Shown here: piece after piece, positions 24,861 to 28,256 of the stretch
Layout: every line of letters begins with the position of its first letter
Numbering within the stretch: position 1 is the first letter of the stretch
NCBI GenBank assembly: GCA_029263235.1
Contig: JAJCXW010000118.1
Coordinates: 1-47,973, forward strand
Direction: 5' to 3'
From: Acidimicrobiales bacterium
GTDB taxonomy: Bacteria; Actinomycetota; Acidimicrobiia; Acidimicrobiales; Aldehydirespiratoraceae
Length of the DNA: 47,973 nucleotides
Program-made: the position numbers and the translations under genes
Notes under the pieces: generated by a model
Seen by the model: only the letters and a program-made list of their open reading frames with translations
The model's database searches: none
Told to the model about the DNA's origin: nothing

Positions 24861-24913
24861 GAGGAGTGGCGGCGGCGGTAGAGGAGTGGCAGCGGCGACA
24901 GCAGAGGAGTGGC
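24861..24913. repeat. short direct repeat (GAGGAGTGGC, three copies)
   Basis: GAGGAGTGGC occurs at 24861, 24881 and 24904 with purine/GGC-rich spacers of 10 and 13 bp, in the region between the divergent methyltransferase and acyl-CoA synthetase genes. It could affect transcription or be simple slippage; there is no CRISPR-like regular spacing. Confidence 0.7.
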
Positions 24914-25022
24914 AGTCGTGCCCCGTCCGAGTCAACCGTCTACTGTCGGCCGGCAACGAGGACGGAGCCCCACCGCGGAGATCCGTCCGAGAGAGATGCC
25001 GGTATCCATTGGGAGGGTCGAC

Positions 25023-26642
25023 ATGACACAACAGACGCCTGACCTCGGGCCGATCGCCAATGCCGGGCCAGCTGCCGACCCCGGGCCCATTACCGATGCC
25101 TCCACGTTCTGGGAACTGCTGGAGCGGCGAGTTGCGGCCTCGCCGGACCTGCCGCTGTTGATCGACGACACCGATCGCGTGTTGACCTGTCGCCAGTTCA
25201 AGGACCAGGTCGAAAGGGTGGCAGCCGGCCTGCACGACCTCGGAGTCGGGGAGGGCACCGCGGTCACCTGGGAACTACCGACCCGTATCGAGACGCTTGT
25301 CGTCAGCTTCGCTCTTTCGAGACTCGGTGCGGTACAGAATCCGATCATTCACATCTACCGGCATCGTGAGGTCGGGTTCTGCATCCGTCAGACCGGTGCC
25401 GAGTTCGTGATCGTGCCGGGGGAGTGGAATGGCTTCGACTACCGGGCGATGGTGGAGGAGGTGACGGCCGGGCTCGATCCGCAGCCAACCATTCTGATCG
25501 GCTACGACGATCTACCCGAAGGTGATCCGGCGACACTGCCGTCGGCACCAACATCCGTGCCGCCCGGCCAGGACTCGCCGGTGCGCTGGCTCTACTACAC
25601 GTCGGGCACCACGTCTGACCCCAAGGGTGTGAAGCACACCGATCAGACGCTCATCGCGGCCGGTGTCGGCCTGGCCAAGGCCCTCGGCGCCGGTCCCGAC
25701 GACGTCGGCACGATCGCGTTTCCCTACTCCCACATCGGTGGACCCGACTACATCGTCATGATGCTGGTCGCCGGCTTCCCGGCGGTTCTCATAGAGAAGT
25801 TCGCTCCCGCGTCGGCGATGGAGGCCTTCGCTCGGCACGGGGCGACGATCATCGGCGGATCCACCGCCTTCTATCAGATGTATCTGGCCGAAGATCAAAA
25901 GACGGAAGGGGCGTCGCTGCCCCATCTGCGGGCGATGGCCGGCGGCGGAGCTCCGAAGCCCCCGGAGATCTACTACGACGTGCTCGAGAAGATGGGTGTG
26001 CCGATCGCCCACGGCTATGGCATGACCGAGTGTCCGATGATTTGCCAGGGGTCGCCAACCGACTCTGACCAGCAGCTTGCTAACACCGAAGGCGCCCCCA
26101 TCGAGGGTTGCGAAGTCGTGATCGTGAAGTCCGATGGTTTGGTTGCGGCTCCGGGCGAGGAGGGCGAGGTGCGGGTGAGCGGGCCGATGCTGTTCAAGGG
26201 CTACACCGACCCGGCGCTCGAGGCCGATGCGTTCGACAGCGAGGGCCGGTTCCGGACCGGCGATCTGGCTGTGTGTCATGCCGATGGTCATGTGACTCTC
26301 ACCGGCCGGGTGAAGGACATCATCATCCGCAAGGGCGAGAACATTTCGGCCAAGGAGATCGAGGATGTTCTCTACGCCCACCCCAAAGTCGAGAACGCCG
26401 CGGTGATCGGCCTTCCCGATCGAGAACGCGGAGAGCGTGTCTGCGCGGTGATCGAGACAGCCCCCGGCGAGGCGCCACTCACCTTCGATGAGATGGCCAG
26501 ATCCTGCACCGATGCCGGACTGATGCGTCAGAAGACTCCGGAACAATTGGAGATTCACGACGGACCGTTGCCTCGTAACGCCACAATGAAGATCCTCAAG
26601 TACGAACTACGTGACCTCTACAAGGAGCAGCCCTGGCCGTGA
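25023..26642 (+). CDS. AMP-dependent acyl-CoA synthetase
   Basis: A 539-residue ANL-superfamily ligase. The P-loop YYTSGTTSDPKGVKHT, the AMP motif HGYGMTECP and the hinge/C-terminal motifs FRTGDL, GRVKDIIIRKGENIS and NATMKILKYELR (catalytic Lys) are complete. It activates a carboxylic acid to acyl-CoA via an acyl-adenylate, feeding the beta-oxidation genes in this window. GGGAGGG precedes ATG 25023. Its stop overlaps the start of the next gene as GTGA, so the arsenate-reductase-like protein is translated in coupling with it, an unusual partnership. Confidence 0.93.
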   Translation: MTQQTPDLGPIANAGPAADPGPITDASTFWELLERRVAASPDLPLLIDDTDRVLTCRQFKDQVERVAAGLHDLGVGEGTAVTWELPTRIETLVVSFALSRLGAVQNPIIHIYRHREVGFCIRQTGAEFVIVPGEWNGFDYRAMVEEVTAGLDPQPTILIGYDDLPEGDPATLPSAPTSVPPGQDSPVRWLYYTSGTTSDPKGVKHTDQTLIAAGVGLAKALGAGPDDVGTIAFPYSHIGGPDYIVMMLVAGFPAVLIEKFAPASAMEAFARHGATIIGGSTAFYQMYLAEDQKTEGASLPHLRAMAGGGAPKPPEIYYDVLEKMGVPIAHGYGMTECPMICQGSPTDSDQQLANTEGAPIEGCEVVIVKSDGLVAAPGEEGEVRVSGPMLFKGYTDPALEADAFDSEGRFRTGDLAVCHADGHVTLTGRVKDIIIRKGENISAKEIEDVLYAHPKVENAAVIGLPDRERGERVCAVIETAPGEAPLTFDEMARSCTDAGLMRQKTPEQLEIHDGPLPRNATMKILKYELRDLYKEQPWP

Positions 26643-27013
26643 GCACGATCCAGATATTCCACAAACCCCATTGAAACTCTTCCCAGAACGCCGTGACGGT
26701 CGCCACGGATCTAGGAATCGATTTCGAAACCGTTCTCTACATGAAGACCAATCCCGACGAGGACGCGCTCAGGGACATCATCGCCAAGCTCGAGGACCCG
26801 GTCGAGAATCTGGTCCGCAAGGACGCGCAGTTCAAGAAGCTCGAGCTCGATGCGGACGATTACGTGGGCAATCCGGACGCCGTGGTCGAGGTCCTTCTGC
26901 GTTACCCGAGATTGATTCAGCGCCCGATCATCGTCACCGATGACAAGGCCATCATCGGGCGTCCTCTCGGTGATCAGAAGGCCAAGGACCGCGTCGCTCA
27001 GATCTTCGCTTGA
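26639..27013 (+). CDS. ArsC-family arsenate reductase, candidate selenoprotein (in-frame TGA at residue 12)
   Basis: Read from GTG 26639 the frame gives V-S-T-I-Q-I-F-H-K-P-H-(TGA)-N-S-S-Q and continues to the stop at 27011-27013: 124 residues counting the TGA. The TGA (26672-26674) falls at residue 12, the catalytic Cys12 position of ArsC (H-x-P-x-C-x-x-S). The rest is an intact ArsC: NLVRKD, YPRLIQRPIIV and AIIGRPLGD keep the arsenate-binding arginines. The start is supported by a GTGA overlap with the upstream stop and AAGGAG at 26622-26627; the alternative GTG 26693 has no ribosome site and would delete the active site. A stem-loop follows the TGA. Selenocysteine is the favoured reading; a Cys-to-stop nonsense mutation is the alternative. 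Confidence 0.75.
26680..26717 (+). promoter_or_regulatory. SECIS-like stem-loop downstream of the TGA codon
   Basis: Pairs: TTCC 26680-26683 with GGAA 26714-26717, AGA 2685-26687 region with TCT 26710-26712, CCGTG 26691-26695 with CACGG 26704-26708, then C26697-G26702 closing a GGTC loop (26698-26701). The loop begins 23 nt after the TGA and has G at its first two positions, features expected of bacterial selenocysteine insertion elements read by SelB. It was folded by eye and not scored. Confidence 0.5.
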
Positions 27014-28256
27014 CCTTCGCCGAGCCGGCGGAAGCCGCTCCCGTTTCGGTGGGTTTGGCGATCCAGGTGCCGTCGGATTGTCGGTGAAGGCGAATGTGGC
27101 CGTCGTGGAGCAGCGTGTGACATCGCGGGCAGAGAAGGGCCATGGTGTCGATATCTGTGGCGCCCCCGTCCTGCCATTCGTGGATGTGGTGAGTGTGGCA
27201 GCGCTGCACCGGTGCGTTGCAGTTGATGCATCCCCGATCGCGCACTGCTGCCACCAGACGCTGATCGTTGTTGGCGAGACGTCGGCCTCGGCCGAGCCAC
27301 AACGGCCGGCCGGGCCCATCGAACAGCGCTCCATGCCAAGTGGTGTCGGCTGGTAGTTGAGTGAGCACGCTGGCAGGAATGGGGCCGGTGTCGAGGATCT
27401 CGCATCGTGCGTTGGGGTCGGTGCCGTCGATGACACCGATGTCGGCAACCACGACCACCGTGGTGGAGACACGACCGGTGTGAGGGGCGTCGTCAGTGTT
27501 GTCGGGCTGGTGGGGACTGGCGGCCCCGAGAAGCCGGGCCACAGCGTCGGCCCGACGTTGTGCCGCGGTGCGGATCTCGTCGGGGCGTCCGTCGCGGCCG
27601 CCATCGGAGCGCCACAGGGAGTCGGTCTCGGCGTCGAGTCGGGCCAGCGCTCCGGCCCCGGTGACGGGGTCGAACTCGAGGTTGCACACCAACATGCCAT
27701 CGGGGTTGGTGAACCACGACGCACGACGGGCCTTGCGCTGGCGTTCGAGCTGCCGCTCGGCATCGTCGGTGCGTTGGTGACGGCGAATCCAGTCGCGGAT
27801 CTCGCGCGCCGCGAGATCCGCCGGACGCGACCCGCACAACCCGAGCAGCTTCTGGTCGGTGTCGACCGCGTCGGCGGAGATCAGGGTGGCGGCACGGGCC
27901 AGATCGTCGACCGTCTCGGCCGGGATCGCCCCCGAAGCCAGACCCTCGGCCACATTGGGCATCGCGGCCACGGCAGTAGCGCGGCGAGAGCGCCTCTTGG
28001 CCTCACGGCTACTGCAATGGGTGACGCTTCGGACCACGCCGGCAGCATCGAGGCCGTGGTCGTCGAGCCCGTCGATAGCGGCTGCGAACCGGGAATCGGC
28101 CATGTCGAGAGCACCCCGCAGCCGGCTCAGCGCCGCGACAGTGTCGACCAATGCACGACGGGACGCGCCCTCGGGCGACAACTTGACAACCTCCCCGGCA
28201 ACCCGATCAACGACCTCTACGAACATGTGTATGACTCTAGGAATGGGGTGTGACAT
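26952..28256 (-). CDS. HNH endonuclease, 13E12/DUF222 family
   Basis: 434 residues. A DUF222 helical N-terminal region (SRLRGALDMADSRFAAAIDGL through ASGAIPAETVDDLARA) is followed by a C-terminal HNH domain: GCINCNAPVQRCHTHHI, then H-x8-D and LLCPRCHTLLHDG with two zinc-type CxxC pairs. The family is highly repeated in actinobacterial genomes, and its role (homing or mobile-element nuclease) is not settled. ATG 28256 lies within an inverted repeat, so ATG 28226 (MFVEVVD) may be the true start. Its 3' end overlaps the convergent arsC-like gene by 62 bp. Confidence 0.9.
   Translation of the reverse strand: MSHPIPRVIHMFVEVVDRVAGEVVKLSPEGASRRALVDTVAALSRLRGALDMADSRFAAAIDGLDDHGLDAAGVVRSVTHCSSREAKRRSRRATAVAAMPNVAEGLASGAIPAETVDDLARAATLISADAVDTDQKLLGLCGSRPADLAAREIRDWIRRHQRTDDAERQLERQRKARRASWFTNPDGMLVCNLEFDPVTGAGALARLDAETDSLWRSDGGRDGRPDEIRTAAQRRADAVARLLGAASPHQPDNTDDAPHTGRVSTTVVVVADIGVIDGTDPNARCEILDTGPIPASVLTQLPADTTWHGALFDGPGRPLWLGRGRRLANNDQRLVAAVRDRGCINCNAPVQRCHTHHIHEWQDGGATDIDTMALLCPRCHTLLHDGHIRLHRQSDGTWIAKPTETGAASAGSAKVKRRSERRGPWPSDHREDAR

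Follow-up and report, generated by a model that had tools for sequence, protein, structure and literature searches.

Positions 26639 to 27013 of the window (the whole stretch of DNA that was analysed, 47,973 nucleotides from an Acidimicrobiales bacterium) almost certainly encode a selenocysteine (Sec)-containing protein of the ArsC family, as predicted from the sequence. A selenoprotein had been proposed in a sequence-only reading of this DNA, and the proposal is now backed by the selenocysteine machinery of the host genome, by the presence of TGA in the relatives of the gene and by a hairpin that covaries across the family.

Reading frame, fold and active-site residues

When the frame is read from GTG 26639 (VSTIQIFHKPH-TGA-NSSQNAV...), the TGA at codon 12 is its sole interruption before the stop, as had been claimed (Table 1). 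The GTGA overlap between the start (26639-26641) and the stop of the upstream gene (26640-26642) was also re-read in the letters, together with the AAGGAG motif 11 nt before GTG. The warning that an ordinary gene caller would begin at 26693 and lose the active site was justified, as the plain list of open reading frames gives a product of 106 amino acids from that GTG. This false start falls within the 5' arm of the hairpin described below.

Table 1. Features of the arsC region in the window.
Feature	Position	Strand	Details	Basis
Acyl-CoA synthetase gene, AMP-binding	24909..26642	+	stop overlaps arsC start by 4 nt	pair kept in 27/35 family genomes
Ribosome-binding site	26622..26627	+	AAGGAG, 11 nt before GTG	read directly from sequence
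Predicted ArsC-family selenoprotein gene	26639..27013	+	124 codons, Sec at codon 12, TGA stop 27011-27013	frame reading, PF03960 match, E. coli ArsC alignment, relatives
UGA codon, predicted to be read as Sec	26672..26674	+	aligned with E. coli ArsC Cys12	frame and homologue alignment
SECIS-like hairpin	26691..26708	+	arms 26691-26697 and 26702-26708, loop GGUC 26698-26701, 23 nt after UGA	alignment, folding, covariation
DUF222-HNH endonuclease gene	26952..28256	-	overlaps arsC 3' end; at this place in the genus only	

The product had been described as a full-length ArsC body with its arsenate-binding arginines, and both parts of that description hold. The protein belongs to Pfam ArsC (PF03960; 48 bits against a curated cut-off of 24). 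Its score for the arsC equivalog TIGR00014 (81.7 bits) is below the cut-off of 106.05, so it is filed here as ArsC family, with a putative arsenate activity. The alignment with E. coli ArsC spans residues 1 to 105 and sets U12 on Cys12, R60 on R60 and R95 on R94, while R108, beyond the aligned part, was matched to R107 by its GRP motif. The three arsenate-binding arginines of the glutaredoxin-type arsenate reductases are present, and R60, R95 and R108 are invariant among the aligned relatives (sets of 20 and 26). The sequence U-N-S-S corresponds to the UxxS motif of selenoprotein ArsC 1. An AlphaFold2 model (pLDDT 82.9) has the Trx fold of ArsC, and its best PDB matches are arsenate reductases. 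Apart from the Sec position there are zero cysteines in the window protein; a cysteine downstream of Sec is absent in 146 of 151 Sec rows. No second PF03960 gene was found in the assembled genome (86% complete).

Codon 12 in relatives and the selenocysteine machinery

Of 61 genomes of the order, 40 carry the gene with a single TGA in it (35 of the 37 in the family, genus included, and five in other families); in the others the match is a more distant cysteine form or is missing. Every one of the 35 family genomes having the gene has TGA at codon 12. Altogether, TGA occupies this codon in 117 non-identical homologues and TGC or TGT in 24 others, and the in-frame UGA is aligned with the conserved cysteine of the homologues, as is characteristic of selenoproteins.

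The TGA itself, found in a fragmented genome (266 contigs), could be explained by a cysteine arsC gene that has recently suffered a nonsense mutation (TGC or TGT to TGA) or was misread in sequencing, which was the alternative offered by the sequence-only reading. This explanation deserves practically no credence. A single TGA at exactly codon 12 recurs in the 117 non-identical homologues, which excludes a chance TGA and refutes the alternative. A local sequencing error is excluded because the TGA is shared by independent assemblies across species, genera and families, including the single-contig genomes G011 and G042, and the protein is undamaged before and after the TGA. The comparison of orthologues that had been suggested gave TGA with an intact protein in sister species, free of downstream damage; over codons 3-11 the sister sequence L018 differs from the window in two synonymous and zero non-synonymous codons. 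A single mutation or error is therefore ruled out by these assemblies together with the covarying hairpin, which is absent from the cysteine homologues.

The search for the sel genes, also suggested earlier, was successful in the window's own genome (266 contigs, 86% complete). It contains tRNA-Sec (67.2 bits, cut-off 47), selA (387.8 bits), selB (266.6 bits) and selD (357.4 bits), all exceeding their cut-offs, with selA immediately preceding selB on a single contig; the set selA, selB, selC and selD that goes with a bacterial selenoprotein is complete. Among the genomes of the order, selA accompanies TGA-ArsC in 40 of 40 cases (one of the matches being a fragment at a contig end) versus 9 of the 21 genomes without TGA-ArsC (Fisher p 1.7e-7, shared ancestry not corrected for), and none of the 12 genomes without selA has TGA-ArsC. 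Low-scoring tRNA-Sec matches were noisy, and the count was limited to those of at least about 58 bits; at this level tRNA-Sec is absent in G008, G009 and G027, though selA is present in them.

Any readthrough yields the same protein frame, and a standard amino acid might in principle be inserted at the UGA by a reassigned code or by natural readthrough. The probability of this is equally negligible: TGA is the normal terminator in 140 of 175 rows of these genes, the genome has a complete Sec machinery whose occurrence follows that of TGA, the site is cysteine in homologues and a hairpin stands at the distance of a SECIS. Code reassignment was rejected on the first of these points and on the association of selA with TGA-ArsC. 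Selenocysteine is the preferred reading of codon 12.

The selD gene of this genome (L076:1282-2205, G000:C240) has an in-frame TGA of its own within SHGAG-U-ACK, at the active-site cysteine position of SelD. Judging from this motif, a Sec-containing SelD is likely to be a second selenoprotein of the genome.

Beyond the order, a class-wide sample of 395 genomes gave many further TGA matches among the cysteine ones, and named records come from Acidimicrobiales, Acidimicrobiaceae, Ilumatobacteraceae, Candidatus Microthrix and Verrucomicrobiota MAGs. In the genus coded g37 the species differ: one (L157) has TGC and is without the hairpin, and two others (L174 and L175) have TGA. Three genomes (G028, G011 and G018) hold a second, distant TGA-ArsC paralogue (L060, L061 and L062) with a U-S-K-A motif and its own hairpin, whose GGUC is 17 nt after UGA. 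More TGA-ArsC lineages occur in other families of the class (L168-L173, L176, L193 and L196), with the motifs UGKS, UGQS, UGKA, UGQA or UGTA; the GGUC hairpin at 23 nt is absent in them. A tree of 141 rows, built with codon 12 left out and weakly resolved by its few columns, needs nine changes between Sec and Cys, which fits a repeated exchange of the two.

The hairpin downstream of the UGA

A SECIS search over the TGA and the letters after it had been suggested, and a hairpin was found at the right distance. In most family members it reads CCGUGGC-GGUC-GCCACGG, 23 nt after UGA. The constraints of the bacterial SECIS model summarised in PMC13188914, which were used as the hairpin criterion, are reached by 93 of 114 TGA rows versus 2 of 24 Cys rows, and the best 5% with respect to codon-synonymous shuffles include 75 of the 114 TGA rows and one of the 24 cysteine rows. 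Of all 114 TGA rows, 91 have the loop GGUC at one common position, two third codon positions included; since these 91 rows were picked by that loop, its constancy among them is by selection.

The stem shows compensatory change. Pairing reaches 98% versus 88.5% in shuffled alignments, and the cells changed on both sides are 23 versus 6.7, with 0 of 500 shuffles as high. The covariation score is 0.343 versus 0.169 in shuffles (again reached by 0 of 500) and does not exceed 0.08 when the helix is slid. One stem pair, 22-35, is GC in 44 rows, TA in 36 and CG in 7. RNAalifold recovers the same helix unaided. In a side branch the loop is CGUGC, 17 nt after UGA.

The copy in the window carries A instead of G at 26696, producing an A-C mismatch (26696/26703) beside the loop-closing pair that is common to three other rows. 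Its upper stem is of -5.4 to -6.0 kcal/mol versus -12.6 in the sister L018, and its folding advantage over shuffles is only moderate (z -1.2). Because of the mismatch it fails, taken alone, the strict contiguous-stem rule; the GGUC loop, the closing pair and the outer five pairs are kept. On the sequence evidence, the hairpin is the expected bacterial SECIS for the family, and the mismatch makes the window copy the weaker one.

Arsenate, the neighbouring genes and known ArsC proteins

The new selenoproteins reported from the Sargasso Sea in 2005 (PMC1088965) and from the GOS set in 2008 (PMC2398784) include arsenate reductases with the UxxS motif (14 and 77 sequences, respectively), so the earlier statement that ArsC selenoproteins are listed in marine surveys was correct. 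A selenoprotein arsenate reductase is also in the list of a 2022 review, with MBT3519430.1 (PMC9312934). The window gene is a well-supported further member of this known family, sharing with selenoprotein ArsC 1 (pfam03960/COG1393, UxxS) the Pfam ArsC assignment, Sec in place of the catalytic cysteine, the motif and a downstream SECIS. However, the proteins of 2005 and 2008 are metagenome sequences, whereas those described here are placed in Acidimicrobiia genomes with Sec machinery and in Verrucomicrobiota-named records; their hairpin is defined and conserved, and so is the gene upstream. No paper tying Sec-ArsC proteins to Acidimicrobiia was found in a literature search that covered few subscription papers.

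The ArsC of E. coli plasmid R773 (1i9d, 1jzw; glutaredoxin-linked) has the same fold and the equivalents of Cys12, R60, R94 and R107, but the window protein differs from it in having Sec for Cys12, Gln for Arg16 and no other cysteine, and in lying outside an arsenic operon. Arsenate reductase 2 (cd03032; PMC2398784) is likewise an ArsC-like protein with Sec; its UxxC contains a possible resolving cysteine, which the UxxS of the window protein lacks. The Spx and YffB proteins have the same ArsC fold, and the window protein is less similar to them than to arsenate reductases.

By analogy with E. coli ArsC, the main substrate is probably arsenate. Translation would be coupled to that of the upstream gene and begin at GTG 26639, and the ribosome would insert the selenocysteine delivered by SelB at UGA 26672, SelB recognising the hairpin through its GGUC loop 23 nt downstream. 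Arsenate bound to R60, R95 and R108 would be attacked by Sec12, the single catalytic chalcogen of the Trx-fold enzyme. As there is no cysteine besides the Sec position, regeneration of the selenol would have to come from thiols outside the protein: as for the E. coli enzyme, arsenite would be released and the selenol restored by a low-molecular-weight thiol together with a glutaredoxin-like protein. Arsenite would then exit by an Acr3-type transporter, a fragment of which (257.9 bits) is encoded elsewhere in the genome. The search for electron donors gave an MshA-like (mycothiol) match and a CGFC mycoredoxin/glutaredoxin-like protein, both below the curated cut-offs and not beside the gene.

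A selenoprotein with another main substrate, acting with the acyl-CoA synthetase in redox or thiol-transfer reactions or having some other ArsC-like function, seems rather unlikely and yet has points in its favour. The synthetase, for which we know of no link to arsenic, is directly upstream on the same strand in 27 of the 35 family genomes (from a 36 nt overlap to a 94 nt gap), and a Rieske dioxygenase follows the gene in some genomes (L040, L052). The neighbours examined include no ars gene, and the arsC equivalog score is under its cut-off. None of 12 cysteine homologues tested has the synthetase upstream, a comparison confounded by ancestry as they belong to other families. Nevertheless, the three arginines are invariant, the genome has the Acr3-type transporter, gene pairs can persist for expression reasons and the neighbours are others in other clades. 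As the gene lies outside any ars operon and is kept beside the synthetase, the arsenate role is considered likely but putative. The more specific proposal, that the Sec-ArsC of the Acidimicrobiia family is a selenium-dependent partner of the adjoining synthetase and not primarily an arsenic enzyme, is more doubtful still; if true, the ArsC label would mislead for a whole selenoprotein lineage.

Sec-ArsC proves to be widespread and consistently maintained in one large actinobacterial branch, the Acidimicrobiia. Since a plain call starts the gene inside its own recoding hairpin, this selenoenzyme is likely annotated as a truncated protein with its catalytic residue dropped. Besides, the A-V-A-V-A-T stretch of the protein appears to be held fixed by the RNA constraint of the SECIS-like element, and the ArsC family supplies a single enzyme in many natural forms, with Sec or with Cys.
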